A stretch of DNA of 64,000 nt. Origin: a virus. A program made the translations under genes and the position numbers. Numbering within the stretch: position 1 is the first letter of the stretch; the number at the start of each line of letters is the position of its first letter. The notes beneath the pieces are model-generated. The model did no database searches and was not told the origin of the DNA. It was given only the letters and a program-made list of their open reading frames with translations. Shown piece by piece: positions 32,590-45,210 of this stretch. The stretch covers positions 1 through 64,000 of IMG/VR virus record IMGVR_UViG_3300010413_000016. One strand, 5' to 3'.

Positions 32590-33978
32590 ATGGGAACACG
32601 CAAACAGGGATACAAGCGGATTCGGAGTGTAGCAGGTGATCTTTTACTATCACCATATGAAGATTATTCAAATAATAGAACTATGTTGAGATTTAAATGT
32701 CTTGGTTGTGATCAAGTATTCGAGACAACATCCTATCTATACCAAAAAAGCGAAGACGGAAAACGTTGTGTGTCGTGTAAACGAAGAAACGTGGTCACCG
32801 ACAATGATACTCGGGAGGAGTTTATATCGCGATGCGAAGAGGTTCATGGAAAGTATTATAACTATTCACAGTTGCCACATACATTCTCTAAAACCGAAAA
32901 AGTAACTATAATTTGTCCTAAACATGGCAAGTTCACTCAAACGCCAGACGTTCATCTACGCGGAAGTGGCTGCCCAAAATGTAAGGTTGAAAAGGTAACA
33001 CAAGTAACGAGATCAAACAAAACAGATTTTATTTTTAAAGCAAATAAAATACATGATTTTAAGTTCAATTATACCAATGTAACATATGTTAATGCAATAA
33101 CGCCTGTAACTATAATTTGTCCTAAACATGGCAAGTTCACTCAAACGCCAGACGTTCATCTACGCGGAAGTGGCTGCCCAAAATGCTATTCAAGCTCTCA
33201 AATAAGAACTATCCAACAAACGTTAGATAATCATAATATTTTATATGTAAGCGAAAAAACTTTTGCAGGATGTATTGGTATTGGGGGCAAACTATTGCGT
33301 TTTGACATATACATTCCCGAATTTAACACCTGTATCGAGTACGATGGACCTCACCATTATCGGCCAACAATATATGGTGGTTATACAATTGAGCAGGCTA
33401 CTAATAATTTCAAAAAACAAAAACAAAATGATACTATTAAAAATGACTTTTGTACCAATAACCACATAGATCTTATACGCATACCATACACACAGAATCA
33501 TCCTGATGCTACAGTACTTAAATATTTAAATACAAAGCAACCTGAAAGGTTTATGTATACATGGGATGATTTATCAGTGGATGTTAAGAAGATTATTAAT
33601 TACATCATGTCATTTGACTATGAAAGATTCGCGGTGTATGGTATCAAACGTGGGGGGATACCTTTTGCTATTCCTGTATCGTATCATTTTGAAAATCAAT
33701 GTGAGCTAGGAATAGTGACGTATCAAAGATACGATAATAATGATACAAAAGTATCACATGATATCAACCACTCAACCAAAGATATACCTATTTTTGTAAT
33801 TGATGATCTAATCAGTTCTGGTGAAACTATGAGTAAAGTAGTCAAGTCGCTACAACACAAATACAAAAAAGCAAAGATACATCCTATTGTAATATTCGGA
33901 GACGAGAATGAAGAAGGTATCTTTTTTATTCGAGCTCATCCAAAGCAATGGATTGTTTTTCCTTATGAAGCGGAATAG
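32590..33978 (+). CDS. homing-type endonuclease fused to a phosphoribosyltransferase
   Basis: 462 aa. Residues about 1-70 hold a zinc-ribbon-like start (CLGCDQVF, CVSCKRR). Residues about 75-200 hold two copies of a repeat containing VTIICPKHGKFTQTP and GSGCPKC, as in phage HNH/VSR-type homing enzymes. Residues about 200-310 form a PD-(D/E)XK/VSR-like nuclease (LRFDIYIPEFNTCIEYDGPHHY). From about 317 (MYTWDDLS) a type I phosphoribosyltransferase follows, with PRPP loop VIDDLISSGETM. The PRTase part looks complete and begins at a methionine, so an endonuclease has probably fused in frame upstream of it. Confidence 0.82.
   Translation: MGTRKQGYKRIRSVAGDLLLSPYEDYSNNRTMLRFKCLGCDQVFETTSYLYQKSEDGKRCVSCKRRNVVTDNDTREEFISRCEEVHGKYYNYSQLPHTFSKTEKVTIICPKHGKFTQTPDVHLRGSGCPKCKVEKVTQVTRSNKTDFIFKANKIHDFKFNYTNVTYVNAITPVTIICPKHGKFTQTPDVHLRGSGCPKCYSSSQIRTIQQTLDNHNILYVSEKTFAGCIGIGGKLLRFDIYIPEFNTCIEYDGPHHYRPTIYGGYTIEQATNNFKKQKQNDTIKNDFCTNNHIDLIRIPYTQNHPDATVLKYLNTKQPERFMYTWDDLSVDVKKIINYIMSFDYERFAVYGIKRGGIPFAIPVSYHFENQCELGIVTYQRYDNNDTKVSHDINHSTKDIPIFVIDDLISSGETMSKVVKSLQHKYKKAKIHPIVIFGDENEEGIFFIRAHPKQWIVFPYEAE
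32902..32981 (+). repeat. 80-base direct repeat, copy 1
   Basis: Identical to 33106-33185, 204 bases apart (68 codons); encodes the zinc-ribbon module ending in GSGCPKC. Confidence 0.92.
33106..33185 (+). repeat. 80-base direct repeat, copy 2
   Basis: Identical to 32902-32981. Flanking codons differ, so the identity is from recent duplication or gene conversion, not selection alone. Confidence 0.92.
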
Positions 33979-34609: not shown

Positions 34610-34616
34610 GGTCATA

Positions 34617-35531
34617 ATGGAACGAACCGAAAAAAAATATACCTATAGCGAAATCTTTCATTCATTTCAAGGTGAAGGAACATATACTGGCCGCAACACT
34701 GCATGGATTAGATTCTTTCTGTGCAACCTCCAGTGTTCAGGATTCGGACAGAAAGATCCAACAGATCCGTCTACCTATATCTTGCCCTATAAAGATTTGG
34801 ATGTTAGTAAGTACACTAATATTGAAGACCTTCCTGTCTTTGAGTATGGCTGCGATTCGAGCTATACTTGGGCCAAGAAATATAAACACCTAGCAAAAAA
34901 AGCGTCGGCGTTTGAAATATGTGATAGGATTCAGGCCGTTTTAGCCCACGAGACTAATCCGGGCGGATTATTTTTGCATCCTATATCAAGACAGCATACT
35001 AATTTAGCATTTACTGGCGGCGAGCCGATGTTAAATCAAGAAGCGATGGAATCGATTATCATCGAATTTGCTGAACGTCACAACTCTCCTCTCTACGTCA
35101 CGGTAGAAACAAATGGAACTATTGATATTGCAAATCCTGAATTGCAGACAATCATTGAAGAGTGGTATGCTGATGAAGGAGCAGAGTGGTTTTGGTCCGT
35201 AAGTCCTAAGCTATTCTCGACGAGCGGCGAACTGGCTAAAAAAGCTATTCGTCCCGAAGTCGTCAGCATGTATGCCAATATGAGTAATCACGGACACTTG
35301 AAGTATGTTGTAAACGGAACAAATCAAAGTTGGGATGAAGTTGAACAAGCAACTGAAGCATTTCGTAAAGAAGGTGTCGGTTGGGACGTCTACATTATGC
35401 CAGTTGGAGCAACGAAAGAGCAGCAAGAAGATGAACAAATTGCTGAAATTGCAATGGAAGCTATGAAACGTGGATATCATGTATCTGGACGATTGCATTG
35501 CTACATTTTCGGAAATAAAATCGGCACGTAA
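34617..35531 (+). CDS. queE: 7-carboxy-7-deazaguanine synthase, phage type (QueE)
   Basis: 304 aa. This radical-SAM enzyme converts 6-carboxytetrahydropterin to 7-carboxy-7-deazaguanine. It starts YSEIFHSFQGEGTYTGR, the QueE signature. Cluster cysteines are C36 and C40 (FFLCNLQCSGFG); the usual third Cys three residues on is Phe 43, and the likely third ligand is C79 in EYGCDSS, as in other phage QueE proteins. TGGEPM (SAM binding) and a VETNGT motif follow. Starts 8 bases after the previous gene. Confidence 0.88.
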   Translation: MERTEKKYTYSEIFHSFQGEGTYTGRNTAWIRFFLCNLQCSGFGQKDPTDPSTYILPYKDLDVSKYTNIEDLPVFEYGCDSSYTWAKKYKHLAKKASAFEICDRIQAVLAHETNPGGLFLHPISRQHTNLAFTGGEPMLNQEAMESIIIEFAERHNSPLYVTVETNGTIDIANPELQTIIEEWYADEGAEWFWSVSPKLFSTSGELAKKAIRPEVVSMYANMSNHGHLKYVVNGTNQSWDEVEQATEAFRKEGVGWDVYIMPVGATKEQQEDEQIAEIAMEAMKRGYHVSGRLHCYIFGNKIGT

Positions 35532-35537
35532 TTTGTC

Positions 35538-35566
35538 TTGACATACTACCCTTAATCCAATACAAT
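35538..35566 (+). promoter_or_regulatory. sigma70-type promoter of the channel cassette
   Basis: TTGACA, 17-base spacer, TACAAT, just after queE. Confidence 0.82.
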
Positions 35567-35598
35567 ACCCTCTCTGGAAAAAATCCTTTGAGGGTATT
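35564..35598 (+). promoter_or_regulatory. hairpin that covers the SD of the channel gene
   Basis: AATACCCTC (35564-35572) pairs with GAGGGTATT (35590-35598), 9 bp, with an inner GGA/TCC step. The SD GAGGG is in the 3' arm. RNA from the promoter should begin near 35573, just past the 5' arm. Confidence 0.75.
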
Positions 35599-35601
35599 TT
35601 T

Positions 35602-36615
35602 ATGTTACGTAAAATTATTACTGTACTGTTGTTTGTAGTTGCAACAAACGTTTTTGCATCGCCGTTGTATACTATCGGTGTCAAAGAAGCTAAACCCTTT
35701 TCATATAAAGAGAATGGCCAATGGAAAGGAATCAGCATTAATTTGATCAGACTGCTATCCGAGGACATGGGCTTCAGATATAAATTCGTGGAAGACAAAA
35801 CAGTCGATCAGTTAATTGGTGATACGGAAAACCATGCAACTGACTTTTCTATAGCTGCGGTATCGACGACAGCTGCCCGCGAAAAGGTTGTTGATTTTTC
35901 GCATCCTTATTTCTCCACATCAATGGGAATTCTGTCTTATGGGAAACCACCTTGGTATGAAACTGTCTGGTGGATCGCAAAACGGCTACTAATAACGTTG
36001 GTGATCTTTATCGTCGGACTGTACATTGTTGGAGCCTTGGCTGACAAAATTGATGGCGATGAGAATATACGCAATCCGCACGAAGGTGCTTGGTGGGCAT
36101 TGGTAACCTTTACTACGACAGGTTATGGTGACTACGTTCCAAAGACGGGCAAAGGAAAAATATTCGCATCTATTTGGATGGTCGCTAGTCTGATATTGTT
36201 GTCAACATTTACAGGTTATTTGGCGTCAGCGATGACGATTAAACAAATGTCCACAGCGCCTATCACTCTTGGTAACCTTTATTCGTCTTCCGTTGTTACG
36301 GTTAAAGGTACCACTAGTCAACGATTGTTAGATAATCTTGGTATTAAGTATCATTCTGTGCAAACAGCAGATGAAGCTGTCGATTTGGTAATGAAACGAC
36401 GGGTGAGAGCGTTTGCATATGATAGTGCGTTGCTCCAATATTATGCGAACACCAACGGTAATTTGTCGATGGTAACCGTTGATGCGAATAATGAAAATTA
36501 TGCTATCGTTTTTCCTCAAGGGTCACAGTTGACAGAACAGTTTAATGTCGGTATACTTAGGGTCATGACGTCACCGAAGTGGAAAGATGTACGTCACGAA
36601 TATTTTGTTCAATAA
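35602..36615 (+). CDS. prokaryotic ionotropic glutamate receptor-like K+ channel (GluR0-like)
   Basis: 337 aa. Signal peptide (1-19, cut near FAS). Residues about 22-115 form the first half of a type 3 solute-binding domain (YTIGVKEAKPFSYKENGQWK, AAVSTTAAREKVVDFSHPYF). A membrane helix (about 120-146), a K+ filter TTTGYGD (171-177) in a re-entrant loop and a second helix (about 188-212) follow. The second half of the binding domain is about 215-335. This is the S1-pore-S2 order of GluR0, so a ligand-gated K+ channel in the inner membrane is predicted. First gene of a four-gene cassette. Confidence 0.88.
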   Translation: MLRKIITVLLFVVATNVFASPLYTIGVKEAKPFSYKENGQWKGISINLIRLLSEDMGFRYKFVEDKTVDQLIGDTENHATDFSIAAVSTTAAREKVVDFSHPYFSTSMGILSYGKPPWYETVWWIAKRLLITLVIFIVGLYIVGALADKIDGDENIRNPHEGAWWALVTFTTTGYGDYVPKTGKGKIFASIWMVASLILLSTFTGYLASAMTIKQMSTAPITLGNLYSSSVVTVKGTTSQRLLDNLGIKYHSVQTADEAVDLVMKRRVRAFAYDSALLQYYANTNGNLSMVTVDANNENYAIVFPQGSQLTEQFNVGILRVMTSPKWKDVRHEYFVQ

Positions 36616-36634
36616 CCAAACAAGGAGATGACAA

Positions 36635-38320
36635 GTGTCATTTAAATCAAGTATTAAGAAAATCGCCTTATTGGCCACTATCGTTGCAATCGCAGCACCC
36701 ATGGCATATGCGCCTGTTGCAGATGCAAAGAGTTTTGGTGGAGGCCGTAGCTTTTCTTCTTCCTCGTTCAGCCGTAGCTCTTCCTATTCATCTCGATCGA
36801 GTGGAAGCTTCTGGGGGAGCAGCAAGAAGTCTTCGTCCTACTCGTCTGCAAAAACGTATACTTCCAGCAAGCCGGTCCAGAAGAAATCTACTTCCGTTAA
36901 GCCAGTTTCATCTGCCAAGAGTTCGAAGTTTGGAGCGTCCAAACCGAAGTCCTTCCAACACGTTGGAACGGGCTACCAAACTGCGTCAGCGAAGTACTCT
37001 CTGAAAGCTCAACGAGCTAAGTTCAAGAAGCCAGCGTACACTTCAACTGCGGGGTCGAAAGTTAATCGTAGCTTTGCCTACAAGAAGACTTACAGCTCCA
37101 ATCCTGTTTACGCATCGGCGAGACACAGCAACCGTAGTACCTATTTCGATCGCCGTCATCGTTACTACAGCAGCTATCATGTGCCGACCTACGTATACAA
37201 TGTGTCGCCGTCCTATGGTTTGTGGGATACTATCTTCCTGTACAGCATGTTAAATAATATGTCGAACGCATCAACTTTTGCATATAACCATCAGCATGAT
37301 GCAGACTATATGGCATGGAGACGTGAAGCTGAGCGTCAAGCTCAAACCAACGCCGACCTTCGAGCTGAACTTGCCTCTTTGGATTCGAAGATATCCAAGA
37401 TGAGTGGACCTGTAAATCCTAACTACCTGCCTAAAGGTGTTGATGCTGACATCGCTCTGTCTCAGGAAGCTCTCGCTTCCCAGAAGCCCACTTTGCGAGT
37501 GTGTGTTGGAAGTAAATCTGGAGCATACTACCGCGTCACAAGTCTGCTTCAACAAGGCCAAAATTCAGTGAACGTTGATATTATCACCACTGAAGGTTCA
37601 CTGGATACGATTGATGCTATTGCCGACGGCAAGTGCGATGGTGGATTTGTTCAAAGCAACAGTTACTGGAACTACGTTGAGACTAAGCAGAGTGCCAACC
37701 TTCCATTCACACGTATGTTCTCACCCTTCAAAGAGACTGTACACCTCGTATGCAATGCTCGAAGTGGCATCAAAAATGTAGATGATCTGGACTCCGATAA
37801 CCATGTGTACTTCCCACAGAAATCTGGAGCCGCATCAACCTGGGCAGATTTCGTTGCTGATGATAGTGACTACCGTGATGTGCAAACTTCTCTGACCAAT
37901 CCTGCTCTTAAGGTTGGATCTACCGAAGAAGCATTCCTAAAGGCTGGTCAGGATAAGAATGGTTGTGCAATGTATGTTGTAGCTGCAGGAGCAACTTCTA
38001 TCATGCGTAATACTGACAACGGTGCCAAAGCTAGCAATCTTGTGTTGGTTAATGTGAAGGAAGATGGTGTCACTGACACGACTGATCCGTCTGGTGCCCA
38101 TGTGTATTCAACTACGGAACTGAACAAGAAAACGTATCCTAACCTTCTTCGCAAAGCTGGTTGGTTCGGTCTGTTCTCTGGTAATGTCAACACTCTGAAA
38201 GTCAACGCTGATTTTATTATCAGCGATGCTTGGAAGGACAAGAACAAAGATGCATATCCTGAAATGGCAAATGTGTTTGTAGGAATGACTCCTACCATTC
38301 ACAAGACTGTTCACCAGTAA
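36635..38320 (+). CDS. secreted Ser-rich protein with TAXI-type periplasmic binding domain
   Basis: 561 aa. GTG start with AAGGAG 6 bases upstream. Signal peptide (about 1-31, ending ADA). A long Ser/Lys/Tyr low-complexity region (about 32-180), an aromatic stretch (LWDTIFLYSMLNNM), a short coiled coil (EAERQAQTNADLRAELASL) and from about 286 a TAXI/NMT1-like fold: LRVCVGSKSGAYYRV, EGSLDTIDAIADGKCDGGFVQ and FPQKSGAASTW. TAXI proteins bind small acids for TRAP transporters; no transporter is nearby, so it may sense a ligand together with the channel. Confidence 0.82.
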   Translation: MSFKSSIKKIALLATIVAIAAPMAYAPVADAKSFGGGRSFSSSSFSRSSSYSSRSSGSFWGSSKKSSSYSSAKTYTSSKPVQKKSTSVKPVSSAKSSKFGASKPKSFQHVGTGYQTASAKYSLKAQRAKFKKPAYTSTAGSKVNRSFAYKKTYSSNPVYASARHSNRSTYFDRRHRYYSSYHVPTYVYNVSPSYGLWDTIFLYSMLNNMSNASTFAYNHQHDADYMAWRREAERQAQTNADLRAELASLDSKISKMSGPVNPNYLPKGVDADIALSQEALASQKPTLRVCVGSKSGAYYRVTSLLQQGQNSVNVDIITTEGSLDTIDAIADGKCDGGFVQSNSYWNYVETKQSANLPFTRMFSPFKETVHLVCNARSGIKNVDDLDSDNHVYFPQKSGAASTWADFVADDSDYRDVQTSLTNPALKVGSTEEAFLKAGQDKNGCAMYVVAAGATSIMRNTDNGAKASNLVLVNVKEDGVTDTTDPSGAHVYSTTELNKKTYPNLLRKAGWFGLFSGNVNTLKVNADFIISDAWKDKNKDAYPEMANVFVGMTPTIHKTVHQ

Positions 38321-38334
38321 GAGAGGCCAGTCCA

Positions 38335-39000
38335 ATGTGGAATTACATCAAACGTAAAATTGGACTGGGTGGTGCGGACAAGGATGTCCCAGCCTCCGAA
38401 CAGTTCTATTCGCCTCTACGAATCGCTCTGCATAGTACAATCGGACTGGATACTGTCGATTGGATCGTTGTACAGCAGGATCTGAGCCCCAATTTCAGCG
38501 TTCCTGTCGGAAAGATGGAAGTTCTTGCAATTGGACAAACGGAACAAGGCATATACCGTTTCTACTTGCAAGATGAAAAAAGTACCGAATTCGTATTGCA
38601 AGTGTTGTGCGATAAAGATCATCGAACTGGCGATGAGAAAGTGAGCGAAATTATGTTGTTCAAGCAGGTTTCATCTCACTATCCATCTTCGGATGAAGCA
38701 TGGTCAGAGTACATCAAAGACTTCGGTCTTAAGACATTCATTCTTGATGACATCACTTATGACCGAGTATGGGGTGATGAAATGTCCGAAGTTGCTGAAC
38801 CGATTAAATTTGATGAGCATATCATTGCTCCTCAAGAAGAGTACGATTATGAAGATAGTTACATGTTGTATGTCAGAGAGATCGGTGGACAGGACATCTC
38901 GGAATTCGCTCTCATCGGAATCGAAGAAAGCAGTGACTCAGCAGAAGTGGTAACACACATTGGGCTGACCGTTTATCCTTCAAACGTGACAGTTCAGTAG
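38335..39000 (+). CDS. DUF2491 (YjfK-like) protein
   Basis: 221 aa. It begins MWNYIKRKIGLGG and continues with LDTVDWIVVQQDLSPNFSVP, matching my memory of DUF2491, the family of E. coli YjfK. In E. coli, yjfK lies beside the PspA homolog yjfJ; here too the PspA homolog is next. Soluble, acidic; biochemical role unknown. It starts 14 bases after the TAXI gene (GAGAGG SD) and appears more GC-rich than the phage core. Confidence 0.78.
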   Translation: MWNYIKRKIGLGGADKDVPASEQFYSPLRIALHSTIGLDTVDWIVVQQDLSPNFSVPVGKMEVLAIGQTEQGIYRFYLQDEKSTEFVLQVLCDKDHRTGDEKVSEIMLFKQVSSHYPSSDEAWSEYIKDFGLKTFILDDITYDRVWGDEMSEVAEPIKFDEHIIAPQEEYDYEDSYMLYVREIGGQDISEFALIGIEESSDSAEVVTHIGLTVYPSNVTVQ

Positions 39001-39052
39001 CCCCAAACAACTTTTTAATGTATAGTGTTATTTTCAACTTAGGAGATTAAAC

Positions 39053-39808
39053 ATGATTGGTCGTTTCTTTAAGCACTACGGCAAACAAAAAATCACTGAT
39101 GGTATTAACGCGCTGAATGACGCCATCGTTTCTTTTGACCCTGTTGGTGCATCCGAGGCAGCCATTGCCGAAATGGAAGAGAACTTCGACAGTATCAACC
39201 GCGAATACTCGAAAGCGAAACAGGACTGGGCACGCGAACAGAAAGAGGCTGACGAAATCGTTGCTCTGTACGACAAGCGCCTGGCCGCTGCTGAACACAT
39301 CCAGAACCAACTCGCTACCGATCCTGACAATGGCCAGCTATCTGATGCCCTCGATCAGTTGGTATCGGCACTGGAAGGAATGCAGGATGATGTCGAGCGC
39401 GAGAAAGAAGAAGCAGCTGATGCGAAGGAAGTGATGACGGAACTCGAAGCTACTGTCAAGATGTATGCTGACAAGCTCAAGACTGCACGCACAGACATGA
39501 AGAAGGCTGCAAACGCAATGGAAAAAGCCAAGCGTCAGGAAGAGCGTGCCAATGCTCAAGCTGATCGTGCTGCTCAACTTGCGGGGATTAAATCTCAAGC
39601 GTCTGGAATCAGTTCTGCCCTTGAGAGCATGAATCGCCAAGCTACCGAGGCTCAGGCACGTGCTGATGCTGCTAAGCGGAAAGCTGAACTTCTCGGTCCT
39701 TCCACAGTCGACGACAACGACGCAGTGGCAGCCGCAATGGCTGCTGTATCTGGAACCGCCGGCCCAGCCGCTTCTGTAACAGATCGTCTGGCGGCCCTTA
39801 AGAAATAA
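39053..39808 (+). CDS. PspA/IM30 (YjfJ-like) membrane-remodelling protein
   Basis: 251 aa. Almost entirely coiled coil, as in PspA/Vipp1 (ESCRT-III relatives): an N-terminal amphipathic start (MIGRFFKHYGKQKITDGINALNDA), then long heptads rich in A, E, K and Q to about residue 215 and a short Ala-rich tail. Such proteins form rods on damaged inner membrane and hold the proton gradient. SD TAGGAG; weak TATAGT upstream. Last gene of the cassette, followed by a strong terminator. Confidence 0.85.
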   Translation: MIGRFFKHYGKQKITDGINALNDAIVSFDPVGASEAAIAEMEENFDSINREYSKAKQDWAREQKEADEIVALYDKRLAAAEHIQNQLATDPDNGQLSDALDQLVSALEGMQDDVEREKEEAADAKEVMTELEATVKMYADKLKTARTDMKKAANAMEKAKRQEERANAQADRAAQLAGIKSQASGISSALESMNRQATEAQARADAAKRKAELLGPSTVDDNDAVAAAMAAVSGTAGPAASVTDRLAALKK

Positions 39809-39826
39809 GGATCCGTCGCTTCGTCT

Positions 39827-39856
39827 AAAAGGGACCTAATCTAGGTCCCTTTTTTA
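39827..39856 (+). terminator. Rho-independent terminator after the pspA-like gene
   Basis: Arms AAAAGGGACCTA and TAGGTCCCTTTT, 12 bp, 3-base loop, with a T tract; closes the channel cassette. Confidence 0.95.
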
Positions 39857-39867
39857 TTATATTTTTG

Positions 39868-39896
39868 TTGTGCCGTTGCACACTTTTTGATATAAT
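39868..39896 (+). promoter_or_regulatory. sigma70-type promoter
   Basis: TTGTGC, 17-base spacer, TATAAT, directly downstream of the terminator. Confidence 0.7.
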
Positions 39897-39920
39897 AAGT
39901 AGAACTAGAGGAAGTAAGTT

Positions 39921-40371: not shown

Positions 40372-40989
40372 ATGAGTTGGGAAATTAGCAAAGAGTTTGG
40401 ATTCGACTATGGTCACCGTGTATGGTCACAAAAGTTGAACAAAGAATATAGCATCGATGATGAAACGGTGTGCAGACACATTCATGGTCACCGAGGACAA
40501 GTACACATTCACTTATCTGCAGAGTGTTTGACAAACGGAATGTGTACTGATTTCAAACATCTCAACTGGGCAAAAAAGTTTCTAGATGATTACATTGATC
40601 ATAAGTTTATCCTCGATACTAATGATCCATGGTTTATCAACATTATCAACGCAACCCCTGTTTTTGAAGATGGTAAGTTTGTACGAGTAAAAACTACGTA
40701 TCCATTGAACACTTCCGAAATCAATGAGCTTAACGTTAAAGAGGTGTTCGTACCAGGAACTGAACATTTTGCGGGATATATTCTGGAGGTTGATCACCTA
40801 CAAGGACCAGAAAAAGAGTTTTTTGAAGGATTCTTCTTGGTTAAATTCTTACCAACGTCTGAAAATCTGTCTCAGTGGCTGTTTGAATGCGTAGATGCAA
40901 AAATGTCACTGATTGATGTCACAACTTCCAAGATTGAGTGGTGGGAAACACCAAAAAGTTGCTCTGTTTTCACTCGACCTGATAAATAA
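40372..40989 (+). CDS. queD: 6-carboxytetrahydropterin synthase (QueD)
   Basis: 205 aa. T-fold enzyme that converts dihydroneopterin triphosphate to 6-carboxytetrahydropterin, the QueE substrate. Zinc ligands H15 (FDYGHRV), H38 and H40 (CRHIHGHRG), catalytic-type C34, and CTDFKHL (compare MVxDF). Longer than bacterial QueD (about 120 aa) by an insertion (about 85-150) before the C-terminal LSQWLFECV segment. SD GAGG. Confidence 0.9.
   Translation: MSWEISKEFGFDYGHRVWSQKLNKEYSIDDETVCRHIHGHRGQVHIHLSAECLTNGMCTDFKHLNWAKKFLDDYIDHKFILDTNDPWFINIINATPVFEDGKFVRVKTTYPLNTSEINELNVKEVFVPGTEHFAGYILEVDHLQGPEKEFFEGFFLVKFLPTSENLSQWLFECVDAKMSLIDVTTSKIEWWETPKSCSVFTRPDK
40981..40988 (+). promoter_or_regulatory. 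T4-like late promoter box
   Basis: GATAAATA overlapping the queD stop codon, 30 bases before the next ATG. Confidence 0.65.
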
Positions 40990-41753: not shown

Positions 41754-41783
41754 AAAAGGGGGACTAAATTGTCCCCTTTTTTA
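41754..41783 (+). terminator. Rho-independent terminator
   Basis: AAAAGGGGGAC (41754-41764) pairs with GTCCCCTTTT (41771-41780) and ends in a T run; 4 bases before the rIIA -35. Confidence 0.92.
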
Positions 41784-41786
41784 TTG

Positions 41787-41815
41787 TTGGATTCCACTAA
41801 CGCCTCTTGTATAAT
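41787..41815 (+). promoter_or_regulatory. sigma70-type promoter of rIIA
   Basis: TTGGAT, 17-base spacer, TATAAT. Confidence 0.78.
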
Positions 41816-41832
41816 ATTAATATCTAGGAGGC
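41802..41832 (+). promoter_or_regulatory. stem that covers the rIIA SD
   Basis: GCCTCTT (41802-41808, in the promoter spacer) pairs with AGGAGGC (41826-41832, the SD), one G-T pair. The RNA start (about 41822) would be in the loop. Confidence 0.65.
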
Positions 41833-41837
41833 AAATT

Positions 41838-44150
41838 TTGAAACTTCACACCAAAACAAATACCATCGAACGGGGTGGCGTGTATGCTGAAAACGCATTC
41901 ACAATTAAGACAACAGCAAAAGCGTTTGATATTCTTTCAAGTGGGTTATATACCGATCCAATCGCAGCTATAGTTAGAGAGCTGAGCTGCAATGCATCTG
42001 ATGCGCATGTGGCCGCTGGAAAACCAACCGAACCTTTCATCATTCACCTTCCAAATGAACTCGAACCATATTTCTCAGTAATTGATAATGGTACTGGCTT
42101 ATCTGATGAAAATATTCGTGGTGAATTGGTTCCTACTACAACGGTAGAAGGTGACAGAATCGTTCCTATGTTGGACGAGGAGGGTAACCAATTGTACCAC
42201 CGCGCTGGTGGTTTATATACTACGTACTTTGAGTCTACAAAAACAGATTCAAACGATTTCGTCGGCGCACTTGGACTTGGTTCTAAGAGTCCATTCAGTT
42301 ATGCTCGAGCGTTTGATGTCATTTCACGCTACAACGGAACAAAGCTGGTATATTCTGTTTTTCTTAACGAGAGCAACATTCCTTCTGTTGCCTTATTGGG
42401 GAAAAAATCAACTGACGAACCAAACGGTCTTGAAGTCAGAATTGCCATCAGATCGGAAGACTTTAGTGCATTCGCTGAAAAAGTATCACACGAACTTCGA
42501 TTTTTCGACATCAAACCTAACATCATCGGATCATGTAATTTTGAGTTTGTAGATACTCCAGAACCGATTGTATCAGGAGAAGGGTGGTCACTATTTCGTT
42601 CTAGTAGATGGGGCAGTAACCACGTGACAGCAATTCAAGGTAATGTTGCATACCATGTCAACACTGATCAATTGTACAGCCACCTCAGTGATTCAGCTCG
42701 CGCACTTATCGGAGACGTGGACATTGCTTTGTTCTTTGACATTGGTCAGTTAGAATTTGCTGCTAACCGTGAAGAAATTCGATATGACGAAGACACACTA
42801 AGCAACATTATAGATAGACTCGAACAAATGTGTTCAGATTTAACAAAATATGCGAATGATATAATCAGTCCATATTCTGACAGTCGGTGGAACGCAGCAA
42901 TTGCTTTCGAATCTCTCTCCAAGGAATGGTTTTTGGGAGATCATAATCTTCGAATATTTCTGTCTCACAAAACCAAAGAACTTGAAGATGATTCTGTTCT
43001 AAAAGATCTTGTTGTCAAGGGAAACTATGTACAAATTAACAATGATATCAGAGGACACGAGATCGTTGAATATACATACAGAGCACGAGGCAGAATTACC
43101 AGAGAAGGAAGGGTTGAAAATACGAGTGTGAATCCACGCAGCGATACGGTTGTGTTTTACAATGATATTAAAACACGTGGTATCACTCAAATTAAAGAAT
43201 ATCTTCGCAATTCACAGGAAATCAATACAGCGTTGGTCATTACTCCTCTAAAAATTCCTCGAGCAGTCAATACATTCAACGAGGCATATGAAACGCCATT
43301 TACAGATTATGACGAAGAGTACGAATATATCATCGATAGTTTGGGTCATCCTGAAGTTAAAATAGCAAGCATTGACACAGAGACTGTTAAACGAAAAATC
43401 GGAAATGGAACGAAAGCACCCATCTATATTCCAAATGGATATCACTCAGTTAGACGCGGTATGTGGGATACGACATACACAGCAGATTGGAAAACGGCGG
43501 AACTTGGTTCGGTGTATGATAGTACAGATGAATTTTTGTGGTTCCTGCTCGAACATCGTTCAAACATAATTGATGATGAAGGTGGTACGGTATATTGGGA
43601 ATCTCGTAGCATTAGTGATAATATAGCCAATATGGTTAACATCATAAATGAGCACTTTGGTACAAATTACGAAATGGATAATGTGTATGGTGTCTCAGTA
43701 ACAGCTCAAAGAAAAATATCCAAAAAATCCAATTGGACGAATTTATTCGAATTATATTTGTCAGCACTAGAGTCATACTCTCCAACATTGGAGTATATGC
43801 AAATCAAAAATGTAACAACAGATAATGATAATTTTGGAATACTGGCCATGCTGGAAGATTCACAAGCCCGATCCAAAATTTTAGGTCTTGATCGATCGTC
43901 GCCTTTTCGCCAAGCGGTTGAGCCAGCGATAACTAGTATAGTGGAACATGAAGGCAATGTCTCAGCAGCAAGAAAAGTTCTGAGTATCTGGAATTCCCAA
44001 CGTATCTTTGACACACACGTTCCAAACGATGTTGCTCCTTTCTTTGAAAAGGGGCAATTTAACAAATATGAAATGTTGCCGGTAGTCGGAAATTATACTC
44101 GCAACATCGACAAAATTATAAACTATATCAATCTTATAGATAGGAGCTAA
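41838..44150 (+). CDS. rIIA: RIIA lysis-inhibition/exclusion protein
   Basis: 770 aa (T4 RIIA 725 aa). The N-terminal GHKL-type ATPase fold is clear: AIVRELSCNASDAHVAAG (N box), FSVIDNGTGLSDE (G1), ALGLGSKSPFSY (G2), then LFFDIGQLEFAANREEIRYD. Membrane-associated in T4, where rII genes affect lysis and counter lambda Rex exclusion. TTG start at 41838 with AGGAGGC six bases before; other in-frame codons upstream overlap the promoter. rIIB follows one base after the stop. Confidence 0.92.
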   Translation: MKLHTKTNTIERGGVYAENAFTIKTTAKAFDILSSGLYTDPIAAIVRELSCNASDAHVAAGKPTEPFIIHLPNELEPYFSVIDNGTGLSDENIRGELVPTTTVEGDRIVPMLDEEGNQLYHRAGGLYTTYFESTKTDSNDFVGALGLGSKSPFSYARAFDVISRYNGTKLVYSVFLNESNIPSVALLGKKSTDEPNGLEVRIAIRSEDFSAFAEKVSHELRFFDIKPNIIGSCNFEFVDTPEPIVSGEGWSLFRSSRWGSNHVTAIQGNVAYHVNTDQLYSHLSDSARALIGDVDIALFFDIGQLEFAANREEIRYDEDTLSNIIDRLEQMCSDLTKYANDIISPYSDSRWNAAIAFESLSKEWFLGDHNLRIFLSHKTKELEDDSVLKDLVVKGNYVQINNDIRGHEIVEYTYRARGRITREGRVENTSVNPRSDTVVFYNDIKTRGITQIKEYLRNSQEINTALVITPLKIPRAVNTFNEAYETPFTDYDEEYEYIIDSLGHPEVKIASIDTETVKRKIGNGTKAPIYIPNGYHSVRRGMWDTTYTADWKTAELGSVYDSTDEFLWFLLEHRSNIIDDEGGTVYWESRSISDNIANMVNIINEHFGTNYEMDNVYGVSVTAQRKISKKSNWTNLFELYLSALESYSPTLEYMQIKNVTTDNDNFGILAMLEDSQARSKILGLDRSSPFRQAVEPAITSIVEHEGNVSAARKVLSIWNSQRIFDTHVPNDVAPFFEKGQFNKYEMLPVVGNYTRNIDKIINYINLIDRS

Positions 44151-44151
44151 C

Positions 44152-45210
44152 ATGGCATCTTTTATTAAATCTTCTACCCACATCTCGATTGTGTTCGATG
44201 ATGGGGAATCGGCAACAATTTATGCTTCACAGGAAAACTACGACCCTGTATGTGCAGCCATCAAACAAGATGATTGGAGTCTCGCCCAGCACCTAGCGTT
44301 TCCAGTTAATGAGGTCAAGGCCAACCTTGCTCCTCTTGGTGATCGGGTTTCAGTTGAGCATGGAGTTGTGTCTTTGGATGGGACAGCAATTCATAACACT
44401 CTTACCGAGCGCATGCTACAAATGCACAGTGAAGGATTTAATATTGCTCCAATGGCAAAATTCCTCGAGAATCTGATGGACAATCCATCTTATCGAGCGG
44501 TGAACGAACTGTATACATTCCTTGAACAATCAGACCTACCAATCACCGAGGATGGTCACTTCATCGCCTATAAACGTGTCGCCAGTGACTTTACAGACAT
44601 GTATTCACATACGATGGACAACTCTCCAGGCAAGGTGGTATCGATGCCTCGCAATCAAGTGAACGAAGATAAGAACGTAACGTGCTCACGTGGACTGCAC
44701 TTCTGCTCACGTTCTTACTTACCTCACTATGGTGATGTTCCGGATTCGAGAGTGGTTATGGTTAAAATTAATCCGCGTGACGTTGTGTCCATTCCCGCAG
44801 ATTATAACAATGCTAAAGGTCGTTGTAGTCGGTATGAAGTTATCAGGGATCTCCAGCTCAAAGAGACTGGAAACAATTCATACCTTCCTGTTGAACGATT
44901 GGAAAAATCATATCTGCCTCCCGAGGAAGTTTCAGCACCAATTGAAGAGATTAGAACTCCCACCGAAGATGTTGAGCAAGAAGTTCCAAAGGAAAGTCAA
45001 ACCAAAGCGGTCGCTGCCTACTACTCTAAGGATAACACTGAGCCATTTGATGTGTTTGCTTCGCCACGAGATGCTCAAGAAGCGATTGGTGTCGATTCTT
45101 CTAGTATTTCTAAAGTGTGCAGAGGGCAACGTAACACAGCAGGTGGATATGTTTGGAAGTGGACAGATCTTCCACCTACAGTAACTCTACACACCTCCTC
45201 AAGCGACTGA
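44152..45210 (+). CDS. rIIB: RIIB protein with C-terminal NUMOD1-like domain
   Basis: 352 aa (T4 RIIB 312 aa). It works with RIIA. The core region is typical (DGHFIAYKRVASDFTDMYSHT, VTCSRGLHFCSRSYLPHY). After a PE-rich linker (about 250-290), residues about 300-340 form a NUMOD1-like DNA-binding motif (FASPRDAQEAIGVDSSSISK, then GGYVWKW), commonly found in homing endonucleases. SD TAGGAG. Confidence 0.9.
   Translation: MASFIKSSTHISIVFDDGESATIYASQENYDPVCAAIKQDDWSLAQHLAFPVNEVKANLAPLGDRVSVEHGVVSLDGTAIHNTLTERMLQMHSEGFNIAPMAKFLENLMDNPSYRAVNELYTFLEQSDLPITEDGHFIAYKRVASDFTDMYSHTMDNSPGKVVSMPRNQVNEDKNVTCSRGLHFCSRSYLPHYGDVPDSRVVMVKINPRDVVSIPADYNNAKGRCSRYEVIRDLQLKETGNNSYLPVERLEKSYLPPEEVSAPIEEIRTPTEDVEQEVPKESQTKAVAAYYSKDNTEPFDVFASPRDAQEAIGVDSSSISKVCRGQRNTAGGYVWKWTDLPPTVTLHTSSSD

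Follow-up and report, generated by a model that had tools for sequence, protein, structure and literature searches.

A cassette of four genes, in which a predicted GluR0-type ligand-gated K+ channel is joined to a secreted TAXI-like protein, a DUF2491 protein, and a PspA/Vipp1-like helical protein, was identified in a tailed phage and, in the same order, in three further phage contigs (363,531, 204,149, and 41,779 bases; L095, L096, and L122). Judged by sequence comparison, the cassette is real, conserved, mobile, and unusual. We interpret it, with roughly even confidence, as a moron of large phages, a mobile and self-contained module that acts at the membrane as a ligand-triggered guard.

Layout and surroundings of the cassette

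The window, meaning the whole stretch of 64,000 bases analyzed here, comprises bases 1–64000 of a 74,769-base virus record. Matches to phage families for a clamp loader, DNA helicase, DNA polymerase, tail fibre, rIIA, and rIIB clearly point to a tailed phage. The cassette consists of four plus-strand ORFs spanning 35602–39808 with gaps of 19, 14, and 52 nt, located where the original prediction had placed four adjacent genes. The features are as follows:

34610..39920, no strand assigned: segment with queE and the cassette, absent from the syntenic slot of the 363-kb phage (comparison with this collinear phage)
35538..35566, + strand: sigma70-type promoter TTGACA-17-TACAAT, 11/12 matches, within the 70 nt that separate queE from the channel gene
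35602..36615, + strand: predicted GluR0-type ligand-gated K+ channel, 337 aa (Pfam domains, PDB relatives)
36112..36132, + strand: selectivity filter TTTGYGD, residues 171–177 (alignment of phage channels)
36635..38320, + strand: secreted protein with a TAXI-like domain, 561 aa, GTG start (phrog_6856, TIGR02122, solved TAXI proteins)
38335..39000, + strand: DUF2491 (YjfK-like) protein, 221 aa (PF10679 match)
39053..39808, + strand: PspA/Vipp1-like helical protein, 251 aa (AlphaFold/PDB matches, end motifs)
39827..39853, + strand: Rho-independent terminator, 12-bp stem and T-rich tail

The promoter and terminator that had been proposed as the cassette's own are both in place, the latter a 12-bp hairpin followed by a T tract. 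Plus-strand sites of this promoter type number six in the window, versus approximately 1.25 expected.

The cassette had also been described as more GC-rich than its surroundings, which holds for 1-kb bins (0.44–0.48 versus ∼0.40 around) and only partly for the individual genes. Their GC contents, in cassette order, are 0.413, 0.463, 0.438, and 0.524 against a window gene mean of 0.411 (sd 0.033), such that only the last gene lies above all other genes in the window. In the other three phages, too, this helical-protein gene has the highest GC of the cassette, with a low GC3 of 0.247 in the 363-kb phage; the GC excess therefore largely reflects Ala-rich coding. The GC3 of the window cassette (0.39–0.48, versus 0.34, sd 0.05, for other long genes) leaves room for a mild foreign signal. 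GC and codon use are thus weak evidence of foreign origin and were rejected as proof of recent transfer.

Several other features of the window were recorded. A queE-like gene (34617–35531) and a queD-like gene (40372–40989) lie on either side of the cassette, and the collinear 363-kb phage has no match to either. Approximately 2 kb behind the cassette are rIIA and rIIB (41769–45210), the C-terminal end of rIIB being an HNH/NUMOD-like domain. A single protein encoded at 32590–33978 combines a homing-endonuclease-like part (phrog_559, residues 23–308) with a phosphoribosyltransferase-like part (phrog_8995, residues 320–461). On the minus strand, 11 near-consensus promoters (TTGAC[TA]-17-[TG]ATAAT) precede small genes between 55949 and 63596. 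Several of these have GATGGGGC-TATAATG-GCCCCATC in common, a palindrome across the −10 box that could be an operator or a leader hairpin.

Predicted proteins

The first cassette protein is arranged as signal peptide, binding lobe 1, M1–pore–M2, and binding lobe 2, with an SBP_bac_3 match (residues 24–336, E 1.5e-21) that is split by Ion_trans_2 (residues 137–212, E 2.7e-13). Among solved structures, it is closest to the Nostoc ionotropic glutamate receptor homologue (2pyy), and GluR0 (Slr1257, 1ii5) also ranks high; with the K+-type TxGYG filter of the window channel, these matches bear out the GluR0-like channel of the original prediction. Homologues in the other phages share 49% and 29% identity, and one more is recognized by the same Pfam domains. 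The filter reads TTTGYGD, TTTGYGD, TTVGLGD, and TQGYGD in the four phages (the last in the 42-kb contig), and all four conform to TxG[YL]GD. In the ligand pocket, T90, R93, and D274 are invariant in the three aligned phage channels, and R93 and D274 align with the corresponding columns of 2pyy. We take R93 to be the Arg that contacts the ligand carboxylate and D274 to be the acidic residue that contacts the amino group, following the pattern of the family. The phage channel thereby resembles GluR0 of Synechocystis and the Nostoc GLR in its lobe 1–M1–pore–M2–lobe 2 order, filter type, and ligand-contact positions, with the differences that it is phage-encoded and tied to a cassette; its K+ conduction is predicted.

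The 561-residue second protein comprises a signal peptide, a Ser-rich stretch, a conserved domain (residues ∼180–278), and a TAXI-like domain (281–560). The TAXI-type domain that had been proposed for this secreted protein is supported by a match to phrog_6856 at 5.9e-25 and by similarity to 1us4 and 8s4j, with related PDB entries described by their depositors as TAXI binding proteins or "putative GluR0 ligand binding core"; the TIGR02122 match (7.2e-10, 38.2 bits) lies under the curated cutoff of 84.35. Among the ORFs neighboring the window cassette (ORF list, Pfam), none encodes a TRAP permease, YjfI/DUF2170, DUF350, DUF1190, or a GSP-synthase-like ligase. Given that no TRAP permease is among these neighbors, the protein appears to carry a TAXI-like domain without being a TRAP transporter component. 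The TAXI domain alone is not diagnostic of the cassette, since a tblastn search of 50,697 phage records found TAXI domains on their own in EBPR siphovirus 2 and rhizobial phages.

The third gene conforms to its predicted identity as a YjfK-like DUF2491 protein, matching PF10679 with E 1.2e-24 and 87.2 bits against a gathering cutoff of 25. It is 24% identical to E. coli YjfK and has no signal peptide by eye. Its AlphaFold model is beta-rich and confident (pLDDT 89), and a fold search with this model returned only unrelated beta proteins at low TM.

The original description of the fourth protein as a PspA/IM30 homologue appears right at the level of fold and fails at the level of the family profile. 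PF04012 (PspA/IM30) gave no match even at E ≤ 10, BLASTP against E. coli YjfJ gave a negligible match, and profile comparison with five PspA-family proteins was weak (probability 25%). An AlphaFold model built with 40 aligned homologues (pLDDT 74) shows an N-terminal helix, a long hairpin (35–89, 94–176), and more helices. Its nine best PDB matches in a Foldseek search are Vipp1/PspA over nearly the full length (E ∼3e-3, high rmsd), with several further Vipp1/PspA entries among the top 22. Two motifs, DPx7IxEME at residues 29–42 and the C-terminal DRLAALKK, also resemble PspA/Vipp1; DPx7IxEME and D/E-x-L-A-x-L-K are found at corresponding positions in E. coli PspA (DPQKLVRLMIQEME) and Vipp1 (DELAALKASM), although these end motifs were picked out after the fact and DPx7IxEME is missing in two of the phages. 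The N-terminal helix has a marginal hydrophobic moment (0.24, shuffle fraction 0.065), and the values for other members are not significant. Compared with Vipp1/PspA (bacterial ESCRT-III), the helical protein is thus alike in predicted helix order, hairpin, end motifs, and best PDB matches, while differing in its lack of a PF04012 match, its weak profile match, and its marginally amphipathic first helix. A PspA/Vipp1-like fold outside PF04012 looks right for the modeled protein, short of proof. A structure search against viral proteins found no meaningful family, and assignment as JetC, LmuB, or ZorA was rejected, given that the respective PADLOC matches are generic to coiled coils.

Occurrence in phages and bacteria

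To gather further phage copies, alignments of three of the four cassette proteins were used to scan 2.9 million viral contigs in IMG/VR; single-sequence scans of the same collection found nothing, and alignments were needed for matches. In all three contigs retrieved, the channel–TAXI–DUF2491–helical protein order is complete, with gaps of 2–28 nt, and the identities of some cassette proteins among the phages fall to ∼30%. The 204-kb and 42-kb lineages are distant from the window phage. The former matches 10 of the 100 window ORFs, four of them cassette genes, and has a terminase gene adjoining the cassette; the latter encodes a DnaB-type helicase. Two ORFs behind the 42-kb cassette with a band-7-like look were not supported by Pfam. 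Among the 50,697 phage records, neither a nucleotide search with the cassette nor tblastn with the DUF2491 and helical proteins found a match; apart from the TAXI domains noted above, tblastn retrieved only isolated binding or pore domains. On a viral contig of 578 kb (L097:8001–10932), the gene for a remote homologue of the helical protein precedes those for DUF1190 and a GSP-synthase-like ligase, a polyamine-ligase version of the module; with this different gene set, it was not counted as a cassette.

Expression signals recur in position and differ in sequence among the window, 363-kb, and 204-kb phages. Directly ahead of the channel gene are TTGCAT-17-TACAAT in the 363-kb phage and TTGACA-17-TATAAT in the 204-kb phage, and both have terminator-like hairpins immediately 3′ of the last gene. 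No promoter-like site or hairpin terminator was seen around the cassette of the 42-kb contig.

In the 363-kb phage, a relative of the window phage, matches to 45 of the 100 window ORFs are largely collinear, with 2.7–48 kb of the window corresponding to 231–154 kb, reversed. The cassette of this phage is located at 107990–111947, ∼85 kb from the syntenic slot, where the pre-queE gene and the nudix gene lie <100 bases apart as an empty site. The segment that differs encompasses queE and the cassette and ends near the T tract of the terminator. Since the cassette is relocated in a collinear phage with an empty syntenic site, genome comparison establishes that the four genes move as one unit. The order kept in four phages, the promoter and terminator, and the different position in a collinear relative agree with the original view of one moron-like cassette, and the related phages retain both the channel filter and the helical protein. 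Because the same complete, ordered kit is present in three other phages, the four genes are probably one working membrane device and not four stray genes.

Shared bacterial neighborhoods, as expected for one system, were found, with three of the genes together in two Chromatiaceae and relatives of the module in a set of sister operons. Candidatus Thiosymbion oneisti and a second Chromatiaceae genome (G063) encode TAXI, DUF2491, and helical proteins in the same order as the phage cassette, differing from it in having no adjoining channel gene; no GluR0-type channel was found in the Thiosymbion draft. The Chromatiaceae helical proteins (64–66% identity) form one clade with the four phage proteins (support 99/92), among which they are placed when the tree is midpoint-rooted. 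Given these three-gene versions with no channel alongside, the channel may be coupled only loosely to the rest. A 20.8-kb Thiosymbion contig (NZ_FLUY01000130.1; L015/L016) is an inverted repeat and carries the three-gene operon twice, which is either an artefact of assembly or a true duplication. Outside Chromatiaceae, a class-wide search using the TAXI alignment retrieved just TAXI proteins of the ordinary or tandem kind, including proteins of ∼640 aa that resemble two tandem TAXI domains in a gammaproteobacterial genome (L160:2257–4188, L161:2224–4125).

The sister operon (e.g., Azospirillum, L004), present in >75 loci that are mostly alphaproteobacterial (Rhodospirillales) with some Chromatiales, encodes an N-terminal domain–TM–DUF2491 fusion, then DUF350, then a helical protein. 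Its N-terminal domain, common to residues 180–278 of the phage TAXI-like protein, its DUF2491 domain, and its helical protein (34–42% identity) are homologous to the phage cassette, whereas DUF2491 is fused, DUF350 occupies the membrane slot, and the TAXI domain is absent. No channel was found near sister operons by tblastn. DUF350 and DUF1190 flank the helical protein in Indioceanicola, where a GSP-synthase-like ligase and a Kch-type channel come next. A Rhizobium locus (L007) encodes an ion channel directly 5′ of DUF2491 within a PspA/YjfI/DUF350/DUF1190/ligase cluster, corresponding to the third PspA–CesT/Tir group described previously (PMC11237479). The same work described operons that combine PspA-type proteins and DUF2491 with a K+ channel, proposed for them a role in membrane dynamics, and linked such operons to polyamines (PMC11237479).

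The phage cassette resembles these operons of the E. coli yjfIJKLMC type (PMC11237479) in its DUF2491 and PspA-type helical proteins and in having a channel, which in some members, such as that of Rhizobium, directly precedes DUF2491. It differs in lacking YjfI/DUF2170, DUF350, DUF1190, and the GSP-synthase-like ligase, in adding a TAXI-like protein, and in a helical protein outside PF04012; furthermore, the yjf-type channel has a cytoplasmic sensing domain whereas the phage channel is of GluR0 type with a periplasmic ligand domain. We read the phage cassette as a GluR0/TAXI-equipped variant of known PspA–DUF2491–K+-channel membrane operons. The recurrent theme would be a PspA-type protein, DUF2491, and a small channel or membrane protein, with an external ligand-binding front end added in the predicted phage version.

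Proposed working and alternatives

What the module does in the cell we infer from its parts. The originally guessed roles, namely steadying of the membrane, a block to superinfection, and resistance to depolarizing abortive-infection systems, would be plausible for such a module. In our reading, the outer domain of the channel would respond to a periplasmic ligand resembling an amino acid, with the secreted TAXI-like protein probably binding ligand as well or presenting it. Ligand binding would open a K+ path and shift the membrane potential. The PspA/Vipp1-like protein, with DUF2491 as a guessed adaptor, would then assemble at the inner face of the stressed inner membrane and stabilize it, such that the cell remains sealed and energized while infection proceeds. 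The data separate this guard role poorly from counter-defence, lysis timing, and homeostasis, and our confidence in it is therefore evenly balanced.

In superinfection exclusion or counter-defence, the module would detect or offset depolarization by incoming phages or abortive-infection systems instead of general stress. Such a function would suit a moron-like unit that phages carry with its own signals and that is located in the window ∼2 kb before rIIA/rIIB; the rII proteins of T4 counteract the membrane-depolarizing Rex system. In the collinear 363-kb phage, however, the cassette is not beside rII, and three-gene bacterial relatives exist outside phages. Moreover, no specific defence or counter-defence model matches, the PADLOC defence-system models giving no known match beyond generic coiled coils, and we consider this function unlikely. 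The nearby rII lysis-inhibition genes, together with a K+-type channel bearing a periplasmic amino-acid-type binding domain, could equally be taken to indicate lysis timing or membrane collapse, whereby the channel would drain K+ or depolarize the host on cue and the PspA-like protein would restrain it until then. This is improbable in our estimation, as is the associated proposal that the cue would be, for example, amino acids from lysing neighbors: the accompanying genes look like those of membrane-protective operons, three of the genes persist in two bacteria with no lysis context, and the cassette of the 363-kb phage is not near rII.

Auxiliary host physiology, i.e., adjustment of the host's K+, osmotic, or polyamine/amino-acid balance that is not specifically tied to membrane damage, is suggested by the related bacterial operons, which include the GSP-synthase-like (peptide–spermidine) ligase, DUF1190, and K+ channels and have a described polyamine link (PMC11237479). 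No polyamine enzyme travels with the phage cassette, since the ligase, DUF1190, and DUF350 are absent, and we give this explanation a low probability. That the genes are passenger DNA, acquired from bacteria by chance and unused by the phage, would fit the bacterial three-gene version with its 64–66% identical helical protein; yet frames and order are intact across four phages so divergent that some genes reach only ∼30% identity, and expression signals are kept, leaving this already disfavored explanation very improbable.

Extending the membrane-guard reading, the cassette could tentatively be viewed as a complete, transferable phage signaling-to-membrane system, with an ionotropic-glutamate-receptor homologue that detects an external amino acid and in turn activates a viral PspA/ESCRT-III-like scaffold. 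That this scaffold would protect or reshape the inner membrane of the infected cell, as a counter-stress or counter-defence device, is likewise conceivable and somewhat doubtful. In the open-access literature, with subscription papers mostly outside the scope of the search, no paper was found that joins bacteriophage with GluR0, or phage-encoded with ESCRT-III and PspA. If the proposed working is correct, phages would have taken over an envelope-stress theme that was named after phage infection and coupled it to a ligand-gated channel. The cassette would then offer a small, expressible system for studying how external ligands, K+ flux, and membrane scaffolds connect, and its gene neighborhoods would provide a first role for DUF2491 and for an unannotated helical-protein family found at >75 bacterial loci.
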